This document shows positions 24,270 through 40,300 of a stretch of DNA of 64,000 bases, piece after piece. The stretch is taken from the NCBI RefSeq assembly GCF_002243645.1, contig NZ_CP017704.1, positions 4,668,001 through 4,732,000 on the forward strand. Direction: 5' to 3'. Position numbers and translations under genes: made by a program. Position 1 is the first letter of the stretch; each line of letters opens with the position of its first letter. The DNA comes from Peribacillus simplex NBRC 15720 = DSM 1321. GTDB taxonomy: Bacteria > Bacillota > Bacilli > Bacillales > DSM-1321. Below the pieces are notes generated by a model, which searched no databases, had not been told where the DNA came from, and worked only from the letters and a program-made list of their open reading frames with translations.

Positions 24270-24947
24270 ATGGAAGATAAAAACAAAAACCCTAGTAAAA
24301 AGCAAATAGCTTATGAGCACCTTCGTAAATTAATTTTGGATGGAACATATGGTTCTGGACAGCGGATCATTATCGATCAAACGGCAAAAGAACTAAGTTT
24401 AAGTCCGATTCCTGTCAGGGAAGCAATCAGACAACTGGAATCTGACGGCCTTATTCAATATAAGCCATATAGTGGAGCAGTGGTTACAAGCATTAATGAA
24501 AGCGAATACATTGAAACTCTTTCAGTTTTATCTTTGCTTGAAGGATATGCAGCTGCCCTCAGTTCTTTAACGATGAATGATCATGATTTTGAAAATCTAA
24601 TTAATTTAAACAAAGAAATGGAAAAAGCCCTCCATAACTTTGAATTAGAGCTGTTTGGTAAGTTAAACGAATGCTTCCATGCGGAAATTTATGAAAAGTG
24701 CGGAAATTCCTTTTTAAAGGAAGAAATTAAACAAGCGCAACAAAGAATGAATAGAGTCAGAAAGTCCATGTTCACCATGGTGCCGCAACGCGCAGTCCAA
24801 TCGATTCGCGAACATGAAAGCATCATAAAGCTTCTAAAGGAAAAAGCATCTTTTGAAGAAATTGAATCATTGGTGAGAAAGCATAAACTGAATGCCATCA
24901 GCACATTCAAGCAGAGGGCGGAAACTAATCACGATCAGGCACTTTGA
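24270..24947 (+). CDS. GntR/FadR-family (FCD domain) transcriptional regulator
   Basis: A 225-residue regulator. Winged-helix domain at about 10-75 (SKKQIAYEHLRKLILDG, then IPVREAIRQLESDGLI), followed by an all-helical FCD effector domain with histidine residues suited to metal or ligand binding. No Shine-Dalgarno precedes ATG 24270, and the promoter spacing predicts a leaderless mRNA. It heads the 4-hydroxyphenylacetate island and probably represses itself and the divergent hpaG1/hpaB2 region through TCATATATGA sites. The effector is unknown; a pathway intermediate is likely. A strong terminator follows, so it is monocistronic. Confidence 0.88.
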   Translation: MEDKNKNPSKKQIAYEHLRKLILDGTYGSGQRIIIDQTAKELSLSPIPVREAIRQLESDGLIQYKPYSGAVVTSINESEYIETLSVLSLLEGYAAALSSLTMNDHDFENLINLNKEMEKALHNFELELFGKLNECFHAEIYEKCGNSFLKEEIKQAQQRMNRVRKSMFTMVPQRAVQSIREHESIIKLLKEKASFEEIESLVRKHKLNAISTFKQRAETNHDQAL

Positions 24948-25008: not shown

Positions 25009-25056
25009 CACTTGAATTATTCGGAATATTCAAATAATAAAAAGGTGGTAGAAATA

Positions 25057-25974
25057 ATGTACGAGGAAATCAAAAGTCGTTTAAGAGGATCCATCGCTCC
25101 CGTTATCACTCCGTTTGATGACAAGATGGAAGTGGATGTAAAGGCAATTGAAAATCTAGTAAACTGGCATATTGAAAGCGGTTCCCATGGTGTCTCGGTA
25201 TGCGGGACTACCGGCGAGCCGAGTTCACTAACGATTGAGGAACGGGAATTAGTGATGGAAACGGCAATTAAAGCAGCAAAAGCCCGTGTTCCAGTTGCAC
25301 CAGGTACTGGATCTGCTAATCAGAAAGAAACGTTGCATTTGACAAAAAGGGCACAGGAAATGGGCGCGGATGCTGCATTAGTCATCGTTCCTTATTACAA
25401 TAAACCGAATCAACAGGCACTTTACAATCATTTTAAGACGGTAGCTGATTCTGTTGATATCCCGCTTATCGTTTATAACATTCCCGGAAGAACGGCGACG
25501 AATTTAGAAGTGAAGACATTGGCACGTCTTGCTGAAGATTGTGAAAATATTATTGGTGTGAAGGAATCAAATAAGGATTTTGAACATGTTAACCGTGTCT
25601 TATTGAATTGTGGAAGGGATTTTCTCTTATATTCGGGCATCGAATTATTATGCTATCCAATGTTGGCTATTGGAGGGGCTGGACATATAAGTGCTACAGC
25701 TAATATCACTCCTAAAGAAGTGGCGGAAATTTATAACCATTGGGTGGAGGGTGATGTGGATAAGGCACTTGACCTCCATTACAAATTAATGCCATTGAAT
25801 GATGTTTTGTTTAAAGAAACCAATCCAGGACCTTTAAAAGCTGCAATGGGGATGATGGGGAAAATCAATCCTGCATTAAGGCCGCCTATGGGGCCGCCTT
25901 CGGAACCATTGGAAAAAGAACTGCGTGAAACCCTTCAATCATACGGATTGATTGACCAAATAATCCAGTCATAA
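25057..25974 (+). CDS. DapA-like class I aldolase, likely HpaI role in 4-hydroxyphenylacetate degradation
   Basis: A 305-residue member of the DHDPS/N-acetylneuraminate lyase family. Schiff-base Lys is K169 (IIGVKES). Also seen are the G50-T-T-G-E54 motif, PYYNKPN, Y140 in YNIPGRT and Arg145. Family members cleave or form bonds with pyruvate. I recall a described DapA subfamily in 4-HPA operons (Oceanobacillus, Thermus) proposed to act as HpaI, releasing pyruvate and succinic semialdehyde. Its position before hpaE-hpaD supports this role. The gene lies away from dapB, so a lysine role is less likely. The start is ATG 25057, after AAAGGTGG; the upstream frame is ignored. It might also cover the missing hydratase step. 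Confidence 0.8.
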   Translation: MYEEIKSRLRGSIAPVITPFDDKMEVDVKAIENLVNWHIESGSHGVSVCGTTGEPSSLTIEERELVMETAIKAAKARVPVAPGTGSANQKETLHLTKRAQEMGADAALVIVPYYNKPNQQALYNHFKTVADSVDIPLIVYNIPGRTATNLEVKTLARLAEDCENIIGVKESNKDFEHVNRVLLNCGRDFLLYSGIELLCYPMLAIGGAGHISATANITPKEVAEIYNHWVEGDVDKALDLHYKLMPLNDVLFKETNPGPLKAAMGMMGKINPALRPPMGPPSEPLEKELRETLQSYGLIDQIIQS

Positions 25975-25984
25975 TTGCTAGATT

Positions 25985-26052: not shown

Positions 26053-27567
26053 ATGCAAACTTTTCCCGTGCGAGATGTCAAGCATTACATCAATGGTCAA
26101 TTTGTTGATGGTACCTCAGGAAAAACATTTGAAAATCTAAGCCCTTTTAATAATCAAGCAATCAATAATGTGGCAGAAGGGTTTAAAGAGGATATTGATC
26201 AAGCGGTAGCTGCCGCAAGAGCTGCATTCGATAATGGTCCATGGAGAACGATGAAAGTGGAAGAAAGATTGAAGTACATTAATAGGATTGCTGAATTAAT
26301 TGAAGAGAATGCCGAAGAAATTTCCTTTTTGGAATCCCTTGATACAGGGTTGCCGATTAGCCAGACAAAAAAACAGGCGGCAAGGGGAGCGGAGAATTTC
26401 CGTTTTTATTCTGAAATGGTGAAAAGCAGGCTAATAGGAGAGTCGTATCAAGTGGATGACACTTTCATCAATTATACGATTCATAAACCGATAGGAGTGG
26501 CAGGATTAATCACTCCTTGGAATGCGCCTTTCATGTTAGAGACCTGGAAGATCGCCCCGGCCCTGGCTACAGGTAATACATGTGTCCTTAAACCGGCGGA
26601 ATGGTCTCCGTTGACAGCCAATAAATTGGCACAAATCGTTGACCAATCCGGTCTGCCAAAAGGCGTATTCAATATCGTTCACGGTTTTGGGGAGACAGCA
26701 GGGGCGTCCTTGGTTGCCCATCCTGATGTACAATTGATATCCTTTACCGGAGAAACGACGACTGGCGCTGAAATCATTAAAAATGGTGCGGATACAATGA
26801 AACGTTTTTCCATGGAACTCGGAGGTAAATCACCAGCGGTCATTTTTGAAGATGCCGATCTGGAAAAGGCCCTGGATTCAGTGGTATGGGGAATCTATTC
26901 ATTCAATGGGGAGCGCTGCACAGCCAATTCCAGATTATTTGTCCATGAATCGATAATAGACCAGTTCGTTGCAGAGTTGAAGGAACGTGTTCATAATATC
27001 AAAATTGGAAACCCAATGGATCCAGAAACGGAAATCGGACCGCTGATCCATCGTAACCATTTTAATAATGTCTCACGTTATCTGGATATAGCAAAAAATG
27101 AAGGGGCGGAAATTGTAAGCGGTGCCATACCAAGTGCGTTCAAGGAAGGGAATTATATTGCCCCGACGCTTCTCTTGAACTGTACAAATGATATGACGGT
27201 AGCACAGGAAGAGATTTTTGGACCAGTCATGGCAGTCATTCCTTTCAAGACTGAAGAGGAAGTACTGAGAATGGCTAATGATGTAAAATATGGGCTAGCT
27301 GCTTATGTATGGACCAATGATATGAAACGTGGACATAGGTTTGCTCAAGCTGTCGATAGTGGGATGGTCTGGGTAAATTCCCAAAACGTTAGGGATTTGC
27401 GGATACCATTTGGAGGATCCAAATATAGTGGCGTAGGACGTGAAGGTGGCCATTATAGCTTTGAATTCTATACGGAAACACAAGTTATCCACGTCGCAAT
27501 TGGAGAACATCACATTCCAAAATTTGGAGACGTAAAACAAAATGCCGTTTCTTCTGCTGAAAAATAA
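26053..27567 (+). CDS. hpaE: 5-carboxymethyl-2-hydroxymuconate semialdehyde dehydrogenase
   Basis: NAD-dependent oxidation of the ring-cleavage product to 5-carboxymethyl-2-hydroxymuconate. The 504-residue aldehyde dehydrogenase has general base E255 in MELGGKSP and nucleophile C289 in NGERCTA, the context usual for HpaE/AMSDH-type enzymes, plus TPWNAPFMLETWKIAPALATGN. The start is ATG 26053, with AAAGGAGG upstream; the longer frame lacks support. It lies 31 bp before hpaD. HpaE is preferred over other ALDH classes because of this context. Confidence 0.9.
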   Translation: MQTFPVRDVKHYINGQFVDGTSGKTFENLSPFNNQAINNVAEGFKEDIDQAVAAARAAFDNGPWRTMKVEERLKYINRIAELIEENAEEISFLESLDTGLPISQTKKQAARGAENFRFYSEMVKSRLIGESYQVDDTFINYTIHKPIGVAGLITPWNAPFMLETWKIAPALATGNTCVLKPAEWSPLTANKLAQIVDQSGLPKGVFNIVHGFGETAGASLVAHPDVQLISFTGETTTGAEIIKNGADTMKRFSMELGGKSPAVIFEDADLEKALDSVVWGIYSFNGERCTANSRLFVHESIIDQFVAELKERVHNIKIGNPMDPETEIGPLIHRNHFNNVSRYLDIAKNEGAEIVSGAIPSAFKEGNYIAPTLLLNCTNDMTVAQEEIFGPVMAVIPFKTEEEVLRMANDVKYGLAAYVWTNDMKRGHRFAQAVDSGMVWVNSQNVRDLRIPFGGSKYSGVGREGGHYSFEFYTETQVIHVAIGEHHIPKFGDVKQNAVSSAEK

Positions 27568-27598: not shown

Positions 27599-28582
27599 AT
27601 GAATTTTTCTATTATTCGTGTTGCGAGAACGATACTTAATGTAACAGATTTAGATAAATCAAGAGCCTTTTATGTGGATGCTTTAGGTTTTATTGAAACG
27701 GAGAGAACGAATGATCACATATATTTACGTGGTTTAGAGGAAGCGCATCATCACTCGCTTATCTTGCAAAAGGCAGAAAAGCCAAGCGTTGAAGCAATAG
27801 GATACAAGGTTGAAAAAGAGGAAGACCTTGAAGCATTGGAATCTTTCTTCCTGTCCAAGGGAATGAAAATGAAGTGGATGCAGGAAGGAACACAGCATGC
27901 ACTAGGTAAGTCGCTACGAGTTCAGGATATTTCAGGATTGCCAGTGGAATTTTTCAGCAAAATGGATAAAGCCGAGAGATTGCTGCAACGATTCGATTTG
28001 CATAGGGGTTCAAGGGTCCAAAGGATCGATCATGTGAATTGTTGTGTAACAAATGTGCAAAAAGCCTATGATTTTTATGTGAAAGAATTAGGTTTTGCCT
28101 GCTCGGAAGATACAGTGGATGAGTCGGGCCAATTATGGGCAACGTGGCTACATAGAAAGCAAACGGTCCATGACCAGGCATTCATGAACGGAATCGGTCC
28201 AAGACTTCATCATGTAGGCTTCTTTCTGCCTGACCCCCTTGCAATTATCCATGCCTGTGATGTACTGGCATCACTTGGATATGCACAGTCCATCGAACGC
28301 GGACCAGGAAGGCATGGCCTATCCAATGCATTCTTCCTATATTTAAGAGACCCGGACGGTCACAGGATCGAATTATACAATGGGGATTACTTAACATCTG
28401 ACCCGGATACCGAACCGATTCATTGGGATTTAAATGATCCAAGGCGTCAGACATTCTGGGGAGCCAAAGCTCCGGATTCATGGTTTGATGAGGCTTCTGC
28501 CGTTCTTGATATAATATCAGGTGAAGAAGTTACTTTCGAAGAACCGATTCTGGCAAAAAGCAAGCCTGAATTCATCATCTAA
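27599..28582 (+). CDS. hpaD: 3,4-dihydroxyphenylacetate 2,3-dioxygenase
   Basis: Extradiol meta-cleavage of homoprotocatechuate. A 327-residue two-module vicinal-oxygen-chelate enzyme like the Brevibacterium/Arthrobacter type HPCD. Metal ligands fit H145 (RIDHVN), H204 or H205 (RLHHVGF) and E258 (HRIELYNGDY), with N147 and H191 (TVHDQAF) at the acid-base positions. The metal (Fe or Mn) cannot be told from sequence. The start is ATG 27599 after GAAGGGGAG; the frame beginning at 27542 overlaps hpaE and is not used. Confidence 0.93.
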   Translation: MNFSIIRVARTILNVTDLDKSRAFYVDALGFIETERTNDHIYLRGLEEAHHHSLILQKAEKPSVEAIGYKVEKEEDLEALESFFLSKGMKMKWMQEGTQHALGKSLRVQDISGLPVEFFSKMDKAERLLQRFDLHRGSRVQRIDHVNCCVTNVQKAYDFYVKELGFACSEDTVDESGQLWATWLHRKQTVHDQAFMNGIGPRLHHVGFFLPDPLAIIHACDVLASLGYAQSIERGPGRHGLSNAFFLYLRDPDGHRIELYNGDYLTSDPDTEPIHWDLNDPRRQTFWGAKAPDSWFDEASAVLDIISGEEVTFEEPILAKSKPEFII

Positions 28583-28805: not shown

Positions 28806-29690
28806 ATGGATTTGGATATCATTCATGTTCAGCACCCACTTACCAGTATATATACAGCAGAAGCAGAACCGTGTGTGCTGGCTCTTGGATTTTTCGACGG
28901 AGTTCATCTAGGGCATCAAGAATTGATAAATCTAGCCAAAAGGATTGCTATACAGCAAGATTTGAAATTGGCAGCCATGACATTTTTTCCACATCCAAAG
29001 CAAATCATAGGAAACGATCAAACGCCCCACACATACATTACTCCTTTAGAGCAAAAAGCAAAAATAATGCAGGATTTAGGTGTAGAAACCTTGATAGTCG
29101 TGAACTTCGATTCCGCATTTGCCCATCTTTCACCTTCTGGTTTTATCGAGGATTATCTATGTGGATTTAATTGCAAACATGCCGTGGCTGGATTCGATTT
29201 CCGTTATGGGCATAAAGGGGAAGGAAATATGGAAACGCTGAAAATCGAAGGTAAGCGATTTTTTGAAGTGGCGGAAATGAATAAATTTGAAATTGATCAT
29301 GAAAAAGTAAGTTCCACTATGCTTAGAAACTTGATTGCGGATGGTCGGTTCGCAGATATCCCGTCATACCTTGGCACATATTTTGAAAGTCAAGGGACAA
29401 TCAATTTCAAGGATAATCAACACGTTCTAGTTACATTATCGGAAACATTCCCGTCACCCCCGCCAGGCGTTTATTTAATCGAAATTCAAAACGAAGGAAA
29501 TCCTTATGAGGGAATTGCCTATCAAACAATGGACGAATCCATTCAAGAGAATTGGCACTTACAGTTCAATGATTCTTTTCCCTTGGAAGGAAAGAAGATT
29601 CATATCAAATGGAAAAGTGAAAGTAAAATGAATTTGAACCAGTTGACGGATAAGCGAGCCAGGTCTATTTCGAAAGTGCACGCCTACTAA
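28806..29690 (+). CDS. RibF-like FAD synthetase with degenerate riboflavin-kinase half
   Basis: A 294-residue protein. Residues about 20-185 form an FMN adenylyltransferase domain with GFFDGVHLGHQ, TFFPHPKQII, AGFDFRYGHKGEG and VSSTMLRNLI, all standard in bacterial RibF. The C-terminal part (about 190-294) lacks the GxPTAN flavokinase motif, so it probably makes FAD from FMN only, or is regulatory. Its place between hpaD and the transporter suggests a dedicated supply of FAD for the FAD-dependent HpaB oxygenase. AAGGAAGG precedes ATG 28806. A separate housekeeping ribF is expected elsewhere (inference). Confidence 0.8.
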   Translation: MDLDIIHVQHPLTSIYTAEAEPCVLALGFFDGVHLGHQELINLAKRIAIQQDLKLAAMTFFPHPKQIIGNDQTPHTYITPLEQKAKIMQDLGVETLIVVNFDSAFAHLSPSGFIEDYLCGFNCKHAVAGFDFRYGHKGEGNMETLKIEGKRFFEVAEMNKFEIDHEKVSSTMLRNLIADGRFADIPSYLGTYFESQGTINFKDNQHVLVTLSETFPSPPPGVYLIEIQNEGNPYEGIAYQTMDESIQENWHLQFNDSFPLEGKKIHIKWKSESKMNLNQLTDKRARSISKVHAY

Positions 29691-30248: not shown

Positions 30249-31814
30249 ATGAATTGGACAGTTATTATTCTCTTTGCGCTAATGTCGATAGGTACCCTTT
30301 TCATCACGTATTTCGCTTCCAAAAAAACTAAAACGGCAGGCTCTTTTTATACGGCTGGAGGCGGGTTGACCGCTAGGCAAAATGGACTTGCATTGGCCGG
30401 GGATTTTATGTCGGCTTCCACGTTTTTAGGGTTGATTGGAGCATTTTCCTTAACGGGGTATGATGGATTTTTTCTGATGTATGGAGCACTTGTTTCATTT
30501 CTTGTCGTGTTATTCTTAGTAGCAGAACCTTTAAGGAACTTAGGGAAATACACATTGGCTGATATGGTGACTACAAGGTTTAAATATAAACAGGTCCGGG
30601 GAGTGACCGCTTTTAATACCCTGGTGATATCAGTCATGTACATGCTGGGTCAACTTGTTGCAGCAGGTGCTTTATTTAAATTGCTTTTAGACATCCCATA
30701 TAATACCTCTGTCATCATCGTAGGTATTGCAATGTTGGTATTTGTTCTATTTGGGGGGATGACTGCGACGAGCTGGGTGCAGATCATTAAAGCCATCTTG
30801 CTGATTGGCGGAGTGTTTATATTATTCATGATCGTCATGTGGAAGTTGAATTTTAGTTTCATTGGAATTTTCACGGATATGAAAACAGCGACACCCATGG
30901 GTGCAGATTACCTGAAGGCAGGTATTAAATATGCCAGTGGGTGGGATGCAGCGTCCTTGTCACTCGGCCTAATACTGGGAACGGCAGGTCTACCGCACAT
31001 TTTAATACGTTTTTTGACTGTCCCGAATGCAAGAGTGGCAAGAAAGTCGGTTGTTTGGGTGATGTGGATTATGGGTGCTTTTCATATCATGGTCATTTTT
31101 CTTGGATTCGGTGCTGCGAAGTTGGTTGGAACATCGAATATCATGGCTGCTAATCCAGCAGGTAACATGGCTGCACCTTTATTGGCCCAACTTGTGGGCG
31201 GGGACATCTTATTCGCCTTTATTGCGGCGGTTTCCTTTGCAACGATACTCGCAGTTGTTGCGGGAATCGTTTTAACAGGTGCTACGGCATTTTCACATGA
31301 TTTTTATAATGAAATATTAAAAGATGGAAAAGCGACGGAAAAACAGCAAATGACGATGGCTAGATGGGCCTCCATTGGTGTGACTGCACTTGCGATCGTT
31401 TTATCATTAGGCCTGCAGGAATTCAATGTAGCGTTTCTGGCATCGATTGCCTTTACATTGGCCGCTAGTTCGAATTTGCCAGTCATCCTTCTTACAATCT
31501 ATTGGAAAAAATTCAATAAAACCGGTGCAATAGTCGGTATGATGACAGGTCTTTTTGGTACACTTTTGCTAGTAGCACTAAGTCCGAATGTCTGGAACCC
31601 GGTCCCCGGAGCAACCATTATGACAGGTGACCCGATTTTCCCTTTAAATTCACCAGGAATAGTATCCATCCCGCTTGGGTTCCTCGCATGCTATTTAGGT
31701 GCCATGTTCGGTAACCGCAGGACAGGTTTGAAAACGGTTACAAAAGACAATTATAATGAAATCCTCGTAAAGTCCAATACCGGTCATGATGTTAAGGGTG
31801 TTTTGCGACATTGA
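30249..31814 (+). CDS. Sodium:solute symporter (ActP/PaaL-like), probable aromatic acid uptake
   Basis: A 521-residue SSS-family transporter with about 13 membrane helices. Family marks include FYTAGGGLTARQNGLALAGDFMSASTFLGL near the N terminus and GTAGLPHILIRFLTVPNARVARKS in the middle. Acetate permease ActP and phenylacetate permease PaaL belong to this group. Because the gene is embedded in the 4-hydroxyphenylacetate island, that acid or a close relative is the likely substrate (inference). GAAGGG precedes ATG 30249. The pair with DUF485 is probably co-transcribed and ends at the shared terminator. Confidence 0.85.
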   Translation: MNWTVIILFALMSIGTLFITYFASKKTKTAGSFYTAGGGLTARQNGLALAGDFMSASTFLGLIGAFSLTGYDGFFLMYGALVSFLVVLFLVAEPLRNLGKYTLADMVTTRFKYKQVRGVTAFNTLVISVMYMLGQLVAAGALFKLLLDIPYNTSVIIVGIAMLVFVLFGGMTATSWVQIIKAILLIGGVFILFMIVMWKLNFSFIGIFTDMKTATPMGADYLKAGIKYASGWDAASLSLGLILGTAGLPHILIRFLTVPNARVARKSVVWVMWIMGAFHIMVIFLGFGAAKLVGTSNIMAANPAGNMAAPLLAQLVGGDILFAFIAAVSFATILAVVAGIVLTGATAFSHDFYNEILKDGKATEKQQMTMARWASIGVTALAIVLSLGLQEFNVAFLASIAFTLAASSNLPVILLTIYWKKFNKTGAIVGMMTGLFGTLLLVALSPNVWNPVPGATIMTGDPIFPLNSPGIVSIPLGFLACYLGAMFGNRRTGLKTVTKDNYNEILVKSNTGHDVKGVLRH

Positions 31815-31997: not shown

Positions 31998-32867
31998 TCA
32001 TTCTGAAAATGTTTCTAGAAATTTGACGGCGCCTTTGGAAAGATAGCGTTCTTCGAGCCAAATAAGGGCGGCTTCCGATTGTACTTCACAATCTATCAAT
32101 TCGACTATTTTTATACCCTGGGTTGAAAACGATTTGGATGTGGTACGTGGCATGATGGTAGCGCCTATTCCTTCCTTCACTAAAGATAATATCATTGCAG
32201 CATCAGGACATTCACATACAATCGTAGGTTCAAATCCATGTCTGAAGCATTCATCTACTATAAGTTCATAAGTACCTTGACCGCTTACCCTATGCAGCAA
32301 TAAGAGGGGAAATTCCTTAATTTGTTTAAATTCGATGGAGTCTGGGATATCCCAATCTTTTGGGGTGACAAGCACAAAATCTTCCGGCGGAAGGTTAAGC
32401 GATGAGAACTGCTTACCGTTAATTGGAAGCCGTACAATGGCCAACTCGATTTCCCTGTTTATTAAGCCTTCCGTCAAACGGAATGTATCACCTTCCATTA
32501 ACTTGAAGCGTATTTCAGGGTATTTTACTCTAAAGGTTCTCATCCTTTGCGGAATGTAAGAAAAGCAAGTTTTTACTGACCCAATGGAAAGAGTGCCCTT
32601 TACCCCTTTACTGACTTCCTTCACTTCCAGAAGTGTTTCTTCAAACTGATTCAATAGGGCTTCAGCTTTTTTATATAGGACCTTGCCCGTTTCAGTGAGT
32701 TCAAGTCTCTTTCCATTCCGATCGAAAAGTTTTTCACCGATTTCCATTTCCATTAATTTAAGTTGCTGGCTAAGAGGCGGTTGAGCCATATGTAATTTTT
32801 TTGCGGCTTTGGTAACTTGTTCTTCCTGAACGATTGTCACAAAATATTTTAACTGCCGTATGTCCAT
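31998..32867 (-). CDS. LysR-family regulator divergent from hpaB
   Basis: A 289-residue regulator with an N-terminal helix-turn-helix (1-60; DIRQLKYFVTIVQEEQVTKAAKKLHMAQPPLSQQL pattern in pieces) and a periplasmic-binding-like effector domain (about 90-289). It is transcribed away from hpaB1 with a 162-bp shared region, the standard layout for a LysR activator of its neighbour. I chose the ATG at 32867, since GAGGTG lies 7 nt upstream; the longer frame to 32885 overlaps this site. The effector is unknown, most likely 4-hydroxyphenylacetate or a product of it. Confidence 0.9.
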   Translation of the reverse strand: MDIRQLKYFVTIVQEEQVTKAAKKLHMAQPPLSQQLKLMEMEIGEKLFDRNGKRLELTETGKVLYKKAEALLNQFEETLLEVKEVSKGVKGTLSIGSVKTCFSYIPQRMRTFRVKYPEIRFKLMEGDTFRLTEGLINREIELAIVRLPINGKQFSSLNLPPEDFVLVTPKDWDIPDSIEFKQIKEFPLLLLHRVSGQGTYELIVDECFRHGFEPTIVCECPDAAMILSLVKEGIGATIMPRTTSKSFSTQGIKIVELIDCEVQSEAALIWLEERYLSKGAVKFLETFSE

Positions 32868-32932
32868 TTTATACACCTCATACATATGATTTACATATAC
32901 ATATTGAATTTATTAAGTATTTTATATATATC

Positions 32933-33000: not shown

Positions 33001-33029
33001 TTATATTGATACCAAAGGGGGATGCAGTC

Positions 33030-34502
33030 ATGCCGGCAAAAACAGGTAAAGAATATATCGATAGGGTAGACAAAGCAAAGGCGAATGTATGGATCAATGG
33101 GGAGCAAGTAAAAGATAGGATCAGTCAACACCCAGCTTTTAAAGGGGTCATGAAAACACAGGCCGAATTATATGATCTACAGCATGATTCCGCGAAAAAT
33201 GAAATCATGACTTATATTTCACCAACTTCAAACGAAAGAGTAGGGACCTCATTCATGCAGCCGCGGACTAAGGAAGACCTTGAAAAAAGGAGGAAAATGA
33301 TTCAAGAATGGGCAAGACATAATAATGGAATGATGGGACGTTCCCCTGACTATATCAACAGTGGGATGATGGCGTACGGTACTGCAGCTGATATGTTTGG
33401 CACTCAGGATTCCGCATTTGCTAAAAATATGAAAGATTATTATGAGCTCTGCCGGGAAAAGGATTTGTCGCTGACACATACCCTGATTCAGCCCCAGGTT
33501 AATAGGGGAGTCAGTGCCGCAAAGCTTCCTGACCCTTACATCGCTGCACGGATTGCTGGCAAGAATTCAGAAGGGCTTATTATAAAGGGAGCCAGATTAT
33601 TAGCTACGCAAGGAGGAATAACGGATGAAATCATGGTTTTCCCTTCAACATTGCTTAAACAATCAGAAGAAGAAAACCCTTATGCATTCGCATTCTCCAT
33701 ACCAAATAATACACCGGGGTTGAAATTCATCTGTCGTGAATCATTCGACTATGGCAAATCACATTTTGACCATCCACTTGGTTCACGATTTGAGGAAATG
33801 GATACGATTATCGTTTTTGATGATGTAGTCGTTCCTTGGAATCGGGTATTTGCATATGGGGATGTCGGCATTTGCAACCAGGCTTATAATGAAAGCAATG
33901 CAGTTGTTCATATGACCCATCAGGTGGTATCGAAGAATATCGCAAAAACCGAGTTCATTCTGGGGATTTTGCAACTAATGGTGGAAACCATCAATATTGG
34001 GCAATACCAGCATGTTCAGGAGAAAATCTCGGAAGTCATCATAGCGCTTGAAACGGTAAAGGCTTTCATTATAGCTTCGGAGGCAAACGCGAAAGTGGAT
34101 AAGTGGGGAATGATGACACCTGATTTCACACCGTTAAACATTGCCCGTAATTATTATCCGAAGATTTACCCTAGATTCAGTGAAATAATGCAGCAGCTTG
34201 GAGCTAGTGGCTTAATGGCGATACCAAATGAAGCCGATTTCAATTCGGAGCTTCGACCGGATTTGGATAAATATCTTCAAGCCGCGAATGGTGGAGCCTA
34301 TGACAGGGTTAAATTGTATCGTCTCGCATGGGATGTATGCATGAGTTCATTTGGATCCAGGCAAACGCTGTACGAAAGATTCTTTTTTGGGGATCCGGTC
34401 CGTATGGCAAGCGCTTTATATAACGGCTATGATAAACAGGAATATGTGGACCGTGTCAAGGAGTTCTTGAACCGTACTGAAAACCTTGCAGAAATCAACT
34501 GA
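33030..34502 (+). CDS. hpaB: 4-hydroxyphenylacetate 3-monooxygenase, oxygenase component
   Basis: FADH2-dependent ortho-hydroxylation of 4-hydroxyphenylacetate to 3,4-dihydroxyphenylacetate, the entry step. The 490-residue length is normal for the Geobacillus/Thermus type. Conserved family stretches: GRSPDYINSGMMAYGTAADMFG, the FDDVVVPWNRVFAYGD flavin region, and SSFGSRQTLYERFFFGDPVRMA at the C terminus. ATG 33030 follows AAAGGGGGA; the frame from 33006 is not used. It needs reduced FAD from a flavin reductase (HpaC), which is not in this window. Confidence 0.92.
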   Translation: MPAKTGKEYIDRVDKAKANVWINGEQVKDRISQHPAFKGVMKTQAELYDLQHDSAKNEIMTYISPTSNERVGTSFMQPRTKEDLEKRRKMIQEWARHNNGMMGRSPDYINSGMMAYGTAADMFGTQDSAFAKNMKDYYELCREKDLSLTHTLIQPQVNRGVSAAKLPDPYIAARIAGKNSEGLIIKGARLLATQGGITDEIMVFPSTLLKQSEEENPYAFAFSIPNNTPGLKFICRESFDYGKSHFDHPLGSRFEEMDTIIVFDDVVVPWNRVFAYGDVGICNQAYNESNAVVHMTHQVVSKNIAKTEFILGILQLMVETINIGQYQHVQEKISEVIIALETVKAFIIASEANAKVDKWGMMTPDFTPLNIARNYYPKIYPRFSEIMQQLGASGLMAIPNEADFNSELRPDLDKYLQAANGGAYDRVKLYRLAWDVCMSSFGSRQTLYERFFFGDPVRMASALYNGYDKQEYVDRVKEFLNRTENLAEIN

Positions 34503-34575: not shown

Positions 34576-34962
34576 TCATTTATTATATCGATCATGGATA
34601 TTATTCTTTTTATATGTGCCAAAATCACTGAATTCCGTAAGTTCCATGGAGAGGGCAAGATATCTTTTTGAAAAGAGGGATGCCAAATGGGATTCCATCG
34701 TTTCGAAAAGTTGGTCACATACTTTGGTTTTATCACTGTCCTGGCGTCCAGCGCCAATTTTTAGTACGGCATGAACAAAGGCATCATCCCCTGTACCATC
34801 GGCAACACGATAATGCTTCAATTCAATGGCCCGGGATCGAATTCCGCCAATTGGAAAGATGGAAGGATAGGATATCAGTACATCATTCACCTTCCTTAAT
34901 AAGCCGTCAATCTGGATTTCATCTTTGATATTATCCGTATATTCAATAATAATATGAGGCAT
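34576..34962 (-). CDS. hpaF: 5-carboxymethyl-2-hydroxymuconate delta-isomerase
   Basis: A 128-residue tautomerase of the CHMI family. Like E. coli HpaF it begins Met-Pro-His, so that Pro becomes the catalytic N terminus. It then has FPIGGIRSRA, the FVHAVLKIGAGR strand and a C-terminal NNIHDRY near the active site. GGAAGGG precedes the ATG at 34962. It is the last gene of the minus-strand operon hpaG1-hpaG2-hpaF, 17 bp after hpaG2. Confidence 0.92.
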   Translation of the reverse strand: MPHIIIEYTDNIKDEIQIDGLLRKVNDVLISYPSIFPIGGIRSRAIELKHYRVADGTGDDAFVHAVLKIGAGRQDSDKTKVCDQLFETMESHLASLFSKRYLALSMELTEFSDFGTYKKNNIHDRYNK

Positions 34963-34979: not shown

Positions 34980-35768
34980 TTAATTATGGATTTTTAGGTG
35001 CGGCCGATCCCCGCCTTCAGTAAATATATCGTCACCGACTATTGTGCTAACAAGTTTCCCGATACCTTCAATTTCAGTGATGATTTCATCGCCTTCAGCA
35101 GTATCCGCCAATCCCTCAGGTGTGCCTGTCAATATGATATCGCCTGGCCTCAATGTCATGAAGCTGCTGAAATATTCAATTAAATCTGCAATGCCGAAAA
35201 TCATGTCTTTCGTGTTACCTTGCTGAGTCAATTTTCCGTTGACGTAAGTTTTAATGGCAAGATTCGAAGGATCTGGAATATCTTCGGCATCGACTAACCA
35301 AGGACCAATGGGGGTGCAGGTATCGCGATTTTTGACCTTTAAGTTTGGTCGGTAGTAATTCTCCAGATAATCCCGTATTGCATAATCATTTGCAATCGTA
35401 TATCCACTTACATACTTATAGGCTTCTTCCTTTTTTATGTTTTTCGCCTTTTTACCTATGACGACTGCCAGTTCACATTCATAATGCATATAAGCTGCAT
35501 CAGCAGGCCGCCTTGTCTGCCCCCGGTGGCCGATAAAGGTATTGGGACCTTTTAAGAACGCAAGGGGTTCTTCCGGGGCTTTAAAAGCAAGCTCCTTCGC
35601 ATGGTCTGCATAATTCAGGCCAAGCGCGAAGACAGTTCGTGGTTCCACCGGGGGAAGCCAGACAACATCCAGCTCATTGACAATCCGGCCATCCGCCAAT
35701 TTGAGCTGGCCATAATATTCACTTGCTGGATGTACGGCACCTGCATAGGCTACACGTGCTCTCTTCAT
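34980..35768 (-). CDS. hpaG2: 5-oxopent-3-ene-1,2,5-tricarboxylate decarboxylase subunit (HpaG C-terminal half equivalent)
   Basis: A 262-residue fumarylacetoacetate-hydrolase-fold enzyme corresponding to the C-terminal half of E. coli HpaG: FALGLNYADHAKEL, the metal-binding YECELAVVIGK (two Glu) and NDYAIRDYLENYYRPNLKVK are nearly the same. Metal ligands are intact, so this is the decarboxylase half. Its ATG overlaps the hpaG1 stop by 4 bp (ATGA), showing tight coupling with its partner subunit. Confidence 0.9.
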   Translation of the reverse strand: MKRARVAYAGAVHPASEYYGQLKLADGRIVNELDVVWLPPVEPRTVFALGLNYADHAKELAFKAPEEPLAFLKGPNTFIGHRGQTRRPADAAYMHYECELAVVIGKKAKNIKKEEAYKYVSGYTIANDYAIRDYLENYYRPNLKVKNRDTCTPIGPWLVDAEDIPDPSNLAIKTYVNGKLTQQGNTKDMIFGIADLIEYFSSFMTLRPGDIILTGTPEGLADTAEGDEIITEIEGIGKLVSTIVGDDIFTEGGDRPHLKIHN

Positions 35769-36553
35769 AAAATCCCCTCCAGTGATAGTTTTTCCTCGGA
35801 AATGATAGTATTTTCCAAATGCCCGATTTCGTCTATTTCTATTCTGACATGATCATTGGCTTTTGCCAGCGGTGCATTCTCTGGAACTCCAACTAGAAGG
35901 ACGTCACCCGTACTCAAAGTCATGAAGTCTGTTACATCCTCAATAAGTCGGGATATGGAGCGAATTAGATTTGAAGTTGAATTTTCTTGCTTTAGCTCTC
36001 CATTTATATATACACGGATTCCTAAAGAATCGGGGTTGGAGATGGATTCCTTGGATACGACCCATGGACCGATCGGGCAAAATCCATCACGGGCTTTATG
36101 GCGGATAGCAGGACGGAAAACGCTTTCATGTGGAACGCTAATATCATTGGCGATCGTAAAACCTTCTATATAATCCAATGCATGTTCTTTCTTGACTCTT
36201 GTGGCCGTTTTACTGATTACTATTGCAAGTGCGGCCCCGATTTCCAATTCAGGTATGCCGTTTGGAAGGGGAACTGGATTTGAAAAAGAAGAAAACGTGT
36301 TTCTAGGTTTAATATATAGGATCGGCCCTTTAGGAGGTTCATTATAAGGAGGATGGTCGATCTTTCCCTTCAATGCTTCCAATGATCCTTTATAGTTTAA
36401 TAATGTTCCATATACCGTTCCTGAAATAGGGTTATCCAAATTGATTTGTGATACCTCATACTTATCACCGTTCATTAATATATAGCGGTTCGACAGTATT
36501 TCCATTTCTTCCGAATAATCTGACTTTTTGAGTTTCACTCTTGCTTTTGCCAT
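35765..36553 (-). CDS. hpaG1: 2-hydroxyhepta-2,4-diene-1,7-dioate isomerase subunit (HpaG N-terminal half equivalent)
   Basis: A 262-residue FAH-fold protein corresponding to the N-terminal half of E. coli HpaG: ILYIKPRNTF, AIVISKTATRVKKEHALDYIEGF, ANDISVPHESVFRPAI and ARDGFCPIGP. The paired metal-binding Glu of the other half are absent here, as they are in the E. coli N-terminal half. I chose the ATG at 36553, since AAGGGGTGA lies 6 nt before it; a GTG at 36559 abuts that site. It is first of the hpaG1-hpaG2-hpaF operon, whose promoter is overlapped by the GntR operator. Confidence 0.9.
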   Translation of the reverse strand: MAKARVKLKKSDYSEEMEILSNRYILMNGDKYEVSQINLDNPISGTVYGTLLNYKGSLEALKGKIDHPPYNEPPKGPILYIKPRNTFSSFSNPVPLPNGIPELEIGAALAIVISKTATRVKKEHALDYIEGFTIANDISVPHESVFRPAIRHKARDGFCPIGPWVVSKESISNPDSLGIRVYINGELKQENSTSNLIRSISRLIEDVTDFMTLSTGDVLLVGVPENAPLAKANDHVRIEIDEIGHLENTIISEEKLSLEGIL

Positions 36554-36582
36554 GGACACTCACCCCTTGATTTTATTAATAA

Positions 36583-36622: not shown

Positions 36623-36758
36623 CATATTTAGATTATTCAGTAAAATTAGACAAAAAATGTTAGAAAAAAGATGGGTTTCAACAGAAAAATGCCTTGAACA
36701 TTTAGTTAGTATAAAGCTAGAAATCCAAATTGAAAGATTGTGAATGGGGGATGTTTCG

Positions 36759-38290
36759 ATGATGAATGGCAAAGAGTATTTAGAAAGTTTACGAGACGGA
36801 AGAACGGTATTCTTGAACGGCGATAAGGTAGATGATGTGACGACACACCCAGCATATCGCAATTCTGCCAGGTCAATTGCCCAACTATATGATGCTCTCC
36901 ATGATCCGGTTACTGCACGGATTTTAACGACTAAGACAGATGAAGGCCATACTACCCATAAGTTCTTCAAGGCTTCAAAGAACGCAACAGAGCTGCTTGA
37001 AGCAAGGGATGCCATAGCAGAATGGTCAAAATTGAGCTATGGTTTCATGGGTCGTACCCCTGATTACAAAGCTGCTTTTACAGGATCATTGGGACCGTAT
37101 AGCGATTTTTATAAGGGTTTTGAAGATAATGCGAAAAGATGGTATGAAAAAACCACAAGGGACGTTCCCTTCTGTAACCACACAATTATAAATCCGGCAA
37201 TGGACAGGAATAAACCGCTACATGAAAATAAAGAGGTATTTGTACGTACGGTGGAAGAGCGGGATGATGGAATAATCGTAAGTGGAGCTAAAATGGTTGG
37301 AACTTCAGCAGCACTTACGAATTATAATTTTGTCGCGAATTATTCTCCTGTCGATCTTGGGGAAGGGGATAGAAGCCATGCATTGATTTTCTTTGTGCCG
37401 ATGAATGCGCCGGGATTAAAAATGATCAGCAGACAGTCTTTTGAAGAAACGGCTGCGAGGACAGGCACTCCTTTCGATTACCCGCTTTCTAGTCGGTTCG
37501 ACGAGAATGACGCAGTCATCGTCCTTGATCATGTATTCATACCATGGGAGAATGTATTCGCCTATAATAATGTGAAAATTGCAAATGGTTTTAGATCCAA
37601 GACTGGGTGGATGAATCGATATACATTTCACGGCTGCACTCGCTATGCGGTGAAATTGGACTTTATGGCTGGGCTTCTGATGAAGGCTACGGAAATGGCA
37701 GGAACGAATCAATTTAGGGGGGTTCAAGCCAATATCGGGGAAGTGCTTGCTTACAGGAATATGTTTTGGGCAATCTCGACAGCGATGGCTACAGATCCGA
37801 TGGAAGGACCGAATGGCACTGTTCTCCCCAATAGCACATATGCAACTGCATATAGGGTGTTCGCACCTATGGTTTGGCCAAAGGTGAAACAGATATTTGA
37901 ACAGGTTGTAGCAGGTAATCTCATTCAACTCCCATCAAGCTCCAAGGATTTTTTAAACCCTGAGGTCCGCCCGTATCTCGATAAATATTATAAGGGTTCA
38001 GGTGGGGTTCGGCAGTGGAAAGGGTAAAACTGATGAAACTTATATGGGATTCTATCGGAACGGAATTTGGTGGCAGGAATGAGTTATATGAAATCAATTA
38101 TGCGGGTAACCATGAAAATATTAGGTTTGAAACCATGAAAATGGCAGATTTAAATGGACAGTCGGATAAATTCAAAGCTTTTGTGGACTTGGCAATGGAC
38201 GATTATGACCTTCATGGCTGGACAAATGAAAAGTGGATAAATGCAGATGAAGGCATTAATGCTGATTTGATCCAGCTCCGAATGAATTAA
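36759..38290 (+). pseudogene. Second HpaB-family flavin monooxygenase, interrupted by a frameshift
   Basis: Residues from ATG 36759 (GGGGGA upstream) match the HpaB family through [32 protein letters not shown], the DHVFIPWENVFAYNN flavin region. The frame then runs into VRQWKG and a stop at 38027. The family's next block, [20 protein letters not shown], continues in another frame from about 38018 to 38290. One base missing near the G run at 38004-38007 restores one continuous protein of about 510 residues. The downstream part is still well conserved, so the damage is recent, a sequencing error, or a recoding event. It is only distantly similar to the island's intact hpaB, so it may have served another phenolic substrate. 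Confidence 0.8.
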
Positions 38291-38440: not shown

Positions 38441-40300
38441 ATGACGAATCTTTTGAATCTTAAGAATGATGATGGTGAAATTCATTTAAATGATGAGAGG
38501 ATGATCCTGACTTCCTCTTCAATTTTCGGTACCCTAAGAAAGGACTTGATCGAGAATATTGGATTTGAAAGAATGAAGTCTTTTTTAATACGTTATGGCT
38601 GGAATATCGGAGTTAATGATGCTAAAAAGGCACTAAAAGGGAATCTGTCAACGGTTCAGGAGATACTGAGGCAAGGCCCCATTTTACATATGCTGCAGGG
38701 TTATACAAAGGTTAATACTACGAAACTGGAATTATCGATGGATAGTCAAGCGGATGTACACTCTGTAAAGGTGGAAGGGGTTTGGGTGAATTCTTATGAA
38801 GCAGAGGAACATGTCACCCAAACAGGCATCGCGGAAAAGCCAGTCTGTTATACATTGACGGGATATGCAAGTGGATTTTACTCTACGGTCTGTGGTCATG
38901 AAGTGATTTTCAAGGAAAGTGCCTGTAAGGGAGCAGGGCAATCAGAGTGTAGATACGAAGGTAAATCGATACATTTATGGGGCATGGAGATTCAGGATGA
39001 GTTGAAATATTATAAAACCAAACCGATTGTACAAGAGCTTGCCGTAACATATGAAAAGCTGCTGGAGGAACGCAATAGTTTGTCAAAAGTGATGGATATT
39101 CATAATTTGCTGACAGAGGAGTTAATTAACGGAAGAAGCCTTCAATCCATAGTGAGGATGGTTTATCAGAAAACAAAAATACCTTTGTTGATGGAGAATT
39201 TCAATAGCAATCAGGTTTATCATGCTGGGTTTCACATAGGGAAGGTAAGGGAAGTCAGGAATCAGCTCAAACTGATGAGGGAAAATGGTCCTGTCACTTT
39301 GGAGACCGGAAGAATCGTAAAAGATGGGATGGAGCTGCTTTATACCCCCATTACGTTACAAAATAAAACTTACGGCTATTGTGCCTTTGCGCAAACGGAT
39401 CGAGTCGAAGGAAAAACGAACCTGGAAATCAATCGGATGATTCTTGAGAGGGTGTCCATGACTGGTTCCTTATTCCTCTTAAATGAGAAAAGCAGTTTTG
39501 AAGCCCTAGAAAGGGTAAAAGGTTTATTTCTTGAACAAATATTAAATGGAGAGTTTGTTACTAGAGAAGAAATAATCAAAAAAAGCATGTATTTAGACGC
39601 TTCATTGGATCATCCTTTCACCATTGCGGTGCTGGGCTATCGTTTTTCCTCCGATCGGGGGGCAGAGAATGATTATTTCATTCAGCAGAAAATCATCGAA
39701 GAGATTTATAGTTTCTTTAAGAAGCGGAATCAAGTCGTCTTAACAGCCTTAAGAGATGGTCATATCGTATTGCTTATACCGCTGAGTCCTGGAAATGAAT
39801 TTCAATTTCGAACCAAGGAATGCATCAATCATTTATATACTGTTTTCAGCGGATATAACTTTAAAATGGGACTTAGCACAATAAGTGATGAATTGGAACG
39901 GGCTCACGATGTTTTTCAAGAAGCTTTAACCGCTTTGAATATGAATGAGGGAACTCGGGATATCATCAAATTTGAAGAAGTCGATCTACTATCCATTTTA
40001 ATGCATACTGGGAGTACTCCAGCGGTCCTGCAAAAAGCTGAGAAAATGCTGGGTCCTTTATTGATGAAAGAAGATCCAAAAATGAATGAATTATTGAAAA
40101 CGCTTTATGTATTTCTGCAATGCGGTGGAAATCTTGAATGCAGTATGAAAGAATTGAACATTTCAATGAGTGGTTTACGCTATCGGATTAAAAGACTTGA
40201 AGAGTTGCTTTCCTGCCAAATAAGAAATCCTAAAAGTGCTTTTCAATTATATGCATCATTTGAAACCCTGTTAAAGGCGAAAATGATTACCATTGATTGA
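38441..40300 (+). CDS. XylR_N-V4R aromatic sensor fused to a PucR/CdaR-type DNA-binding domain
   Basis: A 619-residue regulator with an unusual join. Residues about 20-110 resemble the XylR_N aromatic-sensing domain. About 125-180 is a V4R domain with C151, C162 and C170 placed like the zinc site of DmpR/XylR-type sensors. A helical linker (about 190-220), a GAF-like region and a degenerate GGDEF-like CdaR region (about 390-500) follow. The last 60 residues hold the PucR-type helix-turn-helix (SMKELNISMSGLRYRIKRLEELL, in part). The sigma-54 AAA+ domain of true XylR/DmpR is absent. It probably senses a phenolic effector and activates hpaB2 or the island. AAAGCCGGGGGG precedes ATG 38441. Confidence 0.85.
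   Translation: MTNLLNLKNDDGEIHLNDERMILTSSSIFGTLRKDLIENIGFERMKSFLIRYGWNIGVNDAKKALKGNLSTVQEILRQGPILHMLQGYTKVNTTKLELSMDSQADVHSVKVEGVWVNSYEAEEHVTQTGIAEKPVCYTLTGYASGFYSTVCGHEVIFKESACKGAGQSECRYEGKSIHLWGMEIQDELKYYKTKPIVQELAVTYEKLLEERNSLSKVMDIHNLLTEELINGRSLQSIVRMVYQKTKIPLLMENFNSNQVYHAGFHIGKVREVRNQLKLMRENGPVTLETGRIVKDGMELLYTPITLQNKTYGYCAFAQTDRVEGKTNLEINRMILERVSMTGSLFLLNEKSSFEALERVKGLFLEQILNGEFVTREEIIKKSMYLDASLDHPFTIAVLGYRFSSDRGAENDYFIQQKIIEEIYSFFKKRNQVVLTALRDGHIVLLIPLSPGNEFQFRTKECINHLYTVFSGYNFKMGLSTISDELERAHDVFQEALTALNMNEGTRDIIKFEEVDLLSILMHTGSTPAVLQKAEKMLGPLLMKEDPKMNELLKTLYVFLQCGGNLECSMKELNISMSGLRYRIKRLEELLSCQIRNPKSAFQLYASFETLLKAKMITID

Follow-up and report, generated by a model that had tools for sequence, protein, structure and literature searches.

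In E. coli and Acinetobacter, the homoprotocatechuate meta-cleavage pathway ends with two enzymes, the hydratase HpaH and the class-II aldolase HpaI, which perform at the same place in the pathway the same two chemical steps that we propose here for a single enzyme, and in E. coli BL21 the HpaH gene is adjacent to the HpaI gene. The accessible text of PMC12718150 states that the Acinetobacter hydratase requires a divalent metal, and a title in its reference list gives the Acinetobacter HpaI as class II. When the hydratase of 2-oxohept-3-ene-1,7-dioate (OHED) was left out of the one-pot reconstitution of the A. baumannii TH pathway, di-acids accumulated and no HKHD, pyruvate, or succinic semialdehyde (SSA) was formed, while loss of 5-carboxymethyl-2-hydroxymuconate isomerase (CHMI) slowed the pathway and did not stop it (PMC12718150, accessible text), which indicates that CHMI has a helping role in that system, which cannot do without the hydratase. 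The same text is inconsistent on R4, in which CHMI is missing according to the body and HHDDI according to the figure legend.

NahE and PhdJ, from naphthalene and phenanthrene degradation, belong to the same superfamily as the DapA-like protein studied here and share with it the Schiff-base lysine, the tyrosine, and a GxxGE motif (K169, Y140, and GTTGE), and NahE is annotated as a hydratase-aldolase. The substrate of NahE bears an aromatic ring and has no distal carboxylate. Reportedly, the 2018 structure paper on NahE and PhdJ describes a subgroup-specific helix insert in the active site. Two other members of the DHDPS superfamily, KdgD and KdaD, lose water at C4 by means of a Schiff-base lysine, according to the accessible part of PMC13398020, where C3-C4 cleavage is not described, and thus provide a precedent for water chemistry at C4 in this superfamily.

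For DHDPS (DapA) itself, crystals of the E. coli and Liberibacter enzymes contain an adduct of pyruvate and SSA on the catalytic lysine, the carboxylate of which contacts Arg138 in both enzymes and Asn248 in that of E. coli (PMC11201819, accessible text). This adduct is the imine of the HpaI substrate; SSA being aspartate semialdehyde minus its amino group, the HpaI substrate corresponds, by our own reasoning, to the DHDPS aldol adduct without the amino group. In addition, alpha-ketopimelate, which is the saturated analogue of OHED, lies in the M. tuberculosis DapA site near Thr54, Thr55, Tyr143, Arg148, Lys171, and Gly194; it had already been observed in E. coli DapA (PMC4977564, accessible text).

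The protein studied here is a member of the family TIGR02313 ("HpaI-NOT-DapA"), which by its name belongs to the same pathway and yields the same cleavage products; the name and description cover the aldolase only, hydration not being included. A similar operon with a named hpaI is described in Bacillus cytotoxicus (PMC6374410), the accessible text of which makes no mention of a missing hpaH, and, judging by titles and the first lines of abstracts, none of the papers found in the open-licence literature assigns hydration to a DapA-type HpaI.

The DapA-like gene and its surroundings

The window, that is, the whole stretch of 64,000 nucleotides from Peribacillus simplex that was analyzed, had been reported in a first-pass annotation to hold a DHDPS-family open reading frame (ORF) with K169, Y140, and a GTTGE motif, and this ORF was confirmed exactly as described (Table 1). 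Its ATG is favored as the probable start over an upstream TTG at 25012, given the ribosome-binding site and the alignments of close relatives, which begin at residue 1. Proteins 100% and 99% identical to it are found in Peribacillus frigoritolerans and P. simplex records. PF00701 (DHDPS) was the sole Pfam match at E ≤ 0.001 (302 bits), the best NCBIfam model was TIGR02313 (472.4 bits, curated cut-off 396.7), and the TIGR02311/PF03328 domain of class-II HpaI was not found in the protein. In accordance with the setting of TIGR02313, the genes for HpaE, HpaD, HpaB, HpaF, and HpaG adjoin it in a 4-hydroxyphenylacetate meta-cleavage cluster, with hpaE next to it, then hpaD, and with hpaB, hpaF, hpaG-C, and hpaG-N further on within 11 kb. 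The earlier view of the protein as a DapA-like HpaI is supported for the aldolase by its TIGR02313 membership, but this assignment is not new, as it is already curated in NCBIfam. Hydratase-aldolases are likewise known, and the new element would be the assignment of the missing hydratase role to the TIGR02313 family.

Table 1. Features of the hpa cluster in the window, with the residues of the DapA-like protein discussed in the text (window coordinates; residue conservation is given over 84 aligned family members).
Feature	Position	Strand	Evidence and remarks
GntR/FCD-family regulator	24270..24947	+	PF00392 and PF07729; 109 bp upstream of the DapA-like gene
Ribosome-binding site aaggtggt (aaaggtggt, ends 25049)	25042..25049	+	Sequence; before ATG 25057
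DapA-like gene, proposed 2-oxohept-3-enedioate hydratase-aldolase	25057..25974	+	305 aa; TIGR02313
GTTGE motif (residues 50-54), ligand of the pyruvoyl-end carboxylate	25204..25218	+	Alignment
Y140, catalytic tyrosine, counterpart of E. coli DHDPS Tyr133	25474..25476	+	84/84; role from PMC4977564 (accessible text)
R145, counterpart of E. coli DHDPS Arg138	25489..25491	+	84/84; mapped through YNxPGR; role from PMC11201819 (accessible text)
K169, Schiff-base lysine, counterpart of E. coli Lys161	25561..25563	+	84/84; role from PMC4977564 (accessible text)
I195-E196, family signature SGIE (SGDD in two DapA rows)	25639..25644	+	84/84 each
N256, probable counterpart of Asn248, the second carboxylate ligand in E. 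coli DHDPS	25822..25824	+	84/84; probable mapping through NPxPxK; role from PMC11201819 (accessible text)
HpaE	26053..27567	+	TIGR02299, 785 bits (cut-off 638); longest ORF starts at 25975
HpaD, 3,4-dihydroxyphenylacetate 2,3-dioxygenase	27599..28582	+	TIGR02295, 445 bits (cut-off 321)
FAD-synthetase-like protein	28806..29690	+	PF06574
Acetate/solute symporter-like transporter	30249..31814	+	By reading; similar ORFs in 12/85 loci
LysR-family regulator	31998..32885	-	
HpaB (type 1), 4-hydroxyphenylacetate 3-monooxygenase oxygenase	33006..34502	+	TIGR02309, 713 bits (cut-off 480)
HpaF, CHMI	34576..34962	-	PF02962, 178 bits
HpaG, C-terminal type	34980..35768	-	TIGR02303, 396 bits (cut-off 276)
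HpaG, N-terminal type	35765..36559	-	TIGR02305, 276 bits (cut-off 229)
Second hpaB, E. coli-type	36744..38290	+	Split into overlapping frames of 427 and 91 aa
V4R-domain regulator	38441..40300	+	Adjoins the second hpaB

Two further genes of the cluster merit mention: the lone FAD-synthetase-like protein is perhaps a supplier of FAD for HpaB, and a cation acetate symporter is also present in the B. cytotoxicus operon (PMC6374410, accessible text).

The protein scored 315 bits on the dapA model TIGR00674 as well (cut-off 206), and its AlphaFold2 model (pLDDT 91) is predicted to share the DHDPS fold, with a TM score of 0.93 and an rmsd of 1.2 Å by Foldseek, both of which would suit a lysine-biosynthetic DHDPS that merely sits in an hpa cluster. 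We regard the chance of this as negligible and rejected it, since the more specific TIGR02313 scores higher (472 bits), HpaE stands alongside in 80/80 related loci, the DD of the two DapA rows is replaced by IE in 84/84 family members, and the genome carries another strong dapA (L001; 364 bits on the dapA model), so that lysine synthesis would have no need of the window gene. The best 50 structure matches each from VIA-align and Foldseek were all DHDPS-type by title, with one MosA; NahE and PhdJ were absent among them, an absence that excludes nothing, and no PDB entry named HpaI was present among the best 60 of the 147 PDB sequences matching the protein.

The alignment comprised 84 family members, of which 83 came from the loci and one from the window, with two DapA rows for comparison. 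Along the GTTGE motif, G50, G53, and E54 were invariant, T51 was conserved in 83/84, and position 52 was T in 65 members and S in 19; Y113, Y114, and G194 were each conserved in 84/84. The likely counterparts of the residues around alpha-ketopimelate in M. tuberculosis DapA are T51, T52, Y140, R145, K169, and G194. The protein accordingly has the catalytic lysine, the tyrosine, and the Arg138 counterpart of DHDPS, and differs from it in the SGIE signature and in the family's location in an operon of aromatic catabolism; SGDD as a mark of DapA is our own criterion, taken from the two DapA rows and not curated, and all 84 members carry SGIE in its place. In the N256 column, one of the DapA rows has S and the other N. 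Beyond the SGIE change, the family departs from both DapA rows at another 63 positions, each conserved to 93% or more among its members.

The parallel with NahE drawn in the first-pass annotation holds as a functional likeness, a like mode of action on an alkylidene-pyruvate being proposed for the DapA-like enzyme, but does not extend to close kinship. NahE of plasmid NAH7 was 29% identical to the DapA-like protein over 108 residues, compared with 38% over 282 residues for one of the DapA proteins of the same genome, and reached only 79 bits on the TIGR02313 model; a close NahE relative is rejected on these figures. NahE also has 7- and 8-residue segments absent from the DapA-like protein and no arginine where the family has YNxPGR, in an alignment that misplaces the lysine region of NahE. 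In the tree, the family formed a clade (94/92) whose placement among DapA, NanA, NahE, and KdgD had values of 41/84, with the two KdgD rows on long branches apart from it; the branches were very long and the bootstrap unsettled, and no branching order was taken from the deep tree. Judging by the sequence scores, hydratase-aldolase activity would have arisen here from a DapA-like ancestor separately from NahE.

Search for hydratase genes in the genome, related operons, and carrier genomes

The search for HpaH recommended in the first-pass annotation returned nothing over the TIGR02312 cut-off of 351.5 bits in the single-contig 5.65-Mb genome, with a best match of 250 bits. The accompanying statement that no HpaH or HpaI homologue is visible therefore applies genome-wide at the curated cut-offs, but requires amendment at the level of superfamilies, as two HpaH-superfamily proteins and one PF03328 protein are encoded. 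The PF03328 protein reached 152 bits where the HpaI model requires 369, and matched best a glucarate-type aldolase model (156 bits); it is thus not a recognized class-II HpaI and was rejected as such, although it may still act as an aldolase. The two HpaH-superfamily proteins had as best models the DmpE hydratase and the DmpH decarboxylase, yet lay below those cut-offs. They are encoded as a pair at 168.7-172.2 kb of the genome (DmpE-type copy 171445-172209, minus strand), among genes that by reading encode an acetaldehyde dehydrogenase, a DmpG-like aldolase, an aldehyde dehydrogenase, and a deaminase-like protein, and the whole reads as a separate 3-hydroxyanthranilate/2-aminomuconate meta-cleavage operon with its own aldolase. 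Such an operon could in principle lend its hydratase, so the genome of P. simplex alone decides nothing. As a side observation, one end of this operon (L018, 5331-16563) carries an HpaB-like monooxygenase together with a flavin-reductase-like protein.

To survey relatives, one genome per species was scanned; of the 315 relatives found, the best 80 were taken together with flanks of up to 10 kb. These loci belong nearly all to Bacilli, Peribacillus and Fictibacillus are over-represented, and several end at contig ends, so that the 80 loci are not independent events. Queries with E. coli BL21 HpaH and class-II HpaI found nothing in the 80 neighborhoods (E ≤ 1e-3), while the HpaH query recovered itself and 11 hydratase loci (12 controls listed) at 1e-59 or better. 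At E ≤ 1e-6, HpaE was present in 80 loci, HpaD in 78, HpaB in 77, the C-terminal type of HpaG (HpaG-C) in 75, HpaF and the N-terminal type of HpaG (HpaG-N) in 50 each, and an HpaC-like protein in 34; at this threshold E. coli HpaH, E. coli HpaI, and the DmpE, DmpH, and PF03328 proteins of the P. simplex genome each matched in 0/80. Five further loci (L134-L138) were equally without a match to HpaH, HpaI, DmpE, or DmpH (E ≤ 1e-5). When the ORFs of all 85 loci were clustered and the clusters named by reading and by family-model matches, the DapA-like protein appeared in 83, HpaE in 82, HpaD in 81, HpaB in 80, HpaG in 76, GntR and HpaF in 49 each, LysR in 43, an HpaC-like flavin reductase in 37, and the FAD synthetase in 22, and all remaining clusters in at most 16, which leaves no widely conserved unassigned enzyme as a hydratase candidate. 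The hydratase gap thus recurs throughout the sampled DapA-type hpa operons and is not peculiar to the window.

We further searched 78 of the 80 carrier genomes with the HpaH model (L067 and L098 were left out; completeness figures were not given), with E. coli HpaH (464.7 bits) and DmpE of plasmid NAH7 (3.6e-71) as positive controls. HpaH over the cut-off was found in 0/78. No match at E ≤ 1e-10 was obtained in 43/78 (32/49 and 11/29), and the other 35/78 (17/49 and 18/29) had a match at this level, often as a pair about 2.7 kb apart, of only about 100 bits in two genomes. By score alone, a divergent HpaH is possible among the sub-cut-off matches of these 35 carriers and of the P. simplex genome; five such matches from carriers were scored, and they were best as DmpE (4) or DmpH (1) and none as HpaH. 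These figures also bear on the idea that a DmpE-type 2-oxopent-4-enoate hydratase of the other meta-cleavage operon hydrates OHED in trans, which would accord with the DmpE-type gene in the P. simplex genome and with the matches in 35 carriers. We consider it improbable, as 43 carriers are without such a match, the P. simplex DmpE and DmpH are found in none of the 80 operon neighborhoods, the DmpE copy belongs to another operon that has an aldolase of its own, and the five carrier matches that were scored came out best as DmpE (4) or DmpH (1), not HpaH.

Four further carriers of at least 98% completeness, one of which (G327) has a family gene just below the TIGR02313 cut-off, included three with an HpaH-model match at E ≤ 1e-5 and one without, and none over the cut-off. 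In 14 named control genomes, the HpaH model gave 3 matches at E ≤ 1, 1 at 1e-5, and 0 at 1e-10 or stricter, and hence no positive control came from them. Thermus composti and Deinobacterium chartae match TIGR02313 and do not match the HpaH model even at E ≤ 1, a pattern that lends weak support, since the named controls never gave a strong HpaH match. Across 398 sampled genomes within the phylum, HpaH was over the cut-off in 0/398 and TIGR02313 in 4/398.

A proposed hydratase-aldolase reading of the DapA-like enzyme

The DapA-like enzyme probably carries out two consecutive steps, because the usual hydratase is missing from such operons: it most likely hydrates 2-oxohept-3-enedioate and then cleaves the product. 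The proposal of the first-pass annotation that one enzyme serves for both hydration and cleavage is thereby supported by elimination (HpaH in 0/80 loci, and over its cut-off in 0/78 genomes) combined with chemistry, since a fold that binds both the saturated analogue of OHED and the aldol adduct makes a class-I lysine aldolase the best remaining candidate. What we observed is the gene, with its family membership and conserved residues, and the lack of a recognized HpaH; from these we infer that this enzyme adds the water, in which order the steps run, and what each residue does, as set out below.

According to this proposal, the homoprotocatechuate meta-cleavage pathway would end with the DapA-like protein acting as a class-I hydratase-aldolase, which works through a lysine Schiff base. 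K169 would form an imine with the C2 ketone of OHED supplied by HpaG; this imine is a conjugated iminium, so water would add at C4, aided by a Tyr/Thr relay (Y140, T51, and Y113 or Y114), to give the imine of 4-hydroxy-2-oxoheptanedioate. In the same active site, retro-aldol cleavage between C3 and C4 would release SSA, and hydrolysis would release pyruvate, with the distal carboxylate presumably held by R145 and N256, in the manner of Arg138 and Asn248 of E. coli DHDPS.

The absence of HpaH does not prove which enzyme hydrates, and HpaG, which has the FAA-hydrolase domain in common with the HpaH superfamily, could have gained the step, leaving the DapA-like protein as an aldolase only. HpaG proteins and the DmpE hydratase of the P. 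simplex genome indeed both match PF01557 (the FAA-hydrolase domain), and an HpaG-C protein is present in 75/80 loci. We nevertheless think this unlikely: the four HpaG proteins scanned scored as ordinary HpaG, all over the cut-offs (396 and 276 bits in the window, 311 in L136, and 342 in L047), the A. baumannii OPETD/HHDDI pair gave no hydration in the one-pot reaction without hydratase when followed to 15 min (PMC12718150, accessible text), and HpaG was not found within the stretch in 5/80 loci, 2 of which are incomplete stretches.

It is very improbable, in turn, that OHED hydration is spontaneous or due to an unrelated, unlinked enzyme, with the DapA-like protein as the plain aldolase of its curated name. 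The TIGR02313 name does cover the aldolase only, and an unlinked enzyme lies beyond the reach of neighborhood searches, but the reconstituted A. baumannii pathway stops when the hydratase is omitted (PMC12718150, accessible text), and the operons in all 80 sampled genomes would depend on an unlinked gene.

If the hydratase-aldolase reading is correct, many Bacilli complete a well-known catabolic pathway using one enzyme less than E. coli, hydratase-aldolase chemistry arose a separate time from a DapA-like enzyme, and annotation that calls hpaH missing in such bacteria would be corrected. A simple structural reason is at hand, as the DapA aldol adduct with SSA is identical with the pathway intermediate, and one could then conceive of a metal-free route to and from 2-oxo diacids that relies on one enzyme.

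A compact form of the operon

In 24/80 loci, the operon has a compact form in which the DapA-like gene is accompanied by HpaG-C and HpaE, and in most cases by HpaB and HpaD, and which lacks HpaF and HpaG-N. These loci include L044-L057, L059, L068, L071-L074, L076, L079, L083, and L101, and in L045 and L068 HpaB and HpaD were likewise not found within the stretch. Together with three distant genomes (G055, G183, and G327), they make a set of 27 compact-form genomes, in which CHMI/HpaF (PF02962) was found in 0/27 at E ≤ 1e-4 and HpaG-N over the cut-off in 0/27, with 4/4 controls positive for each; the weaker HpaG-N matches, present in all 31 genomes, include the HpaG-C protein itself. HpaH over the cut-off was also found in 0/27, and 13/27 had no HpaH-model match at all (E ≤ 1e-10 for the 24 and E ≤ 1e-5 for the three).

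The compact pathway has thus lost a recognizable CHMI, HpaG-N, and hydratase, which led us to a tentative further reading that we hold possible and would not expect: the compact-form DapA-like enzyme, evolved from a DapA-like ancestor separately from NahE, may absorb three steps, namely dienedioate tautomerization, C4 hydration, and retro-aldol cleavage. 2-Hydroxyhepta-2,4-dienedioate would then be tautomerized via a lysine dienamine of the enzyme, and this would explain the loss of HpaF and HpaG-N and of HpaH over the cut-offs in 27/27 genomes.

Some minor observations concern other genes of these loci. On an Embleya plasmid (L134, 10187-11998, plus strand), an HpaG-like domain is apparently fused to an RraA-like domain, by reading, directly before the DapA-like gene, perhaps serving this pathway as an alternative decarboxylase. 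In the window, the overlap of the two frames of the second hpaB lies around 38015-38027, and the gene looks frameshifted; a similar gene in L099 aligns with E. coli HpaB across some 500 codons. The V4R-domain regulator beside it is MobR-like (phenol degradation) and has an AdeR-like C-terminus.
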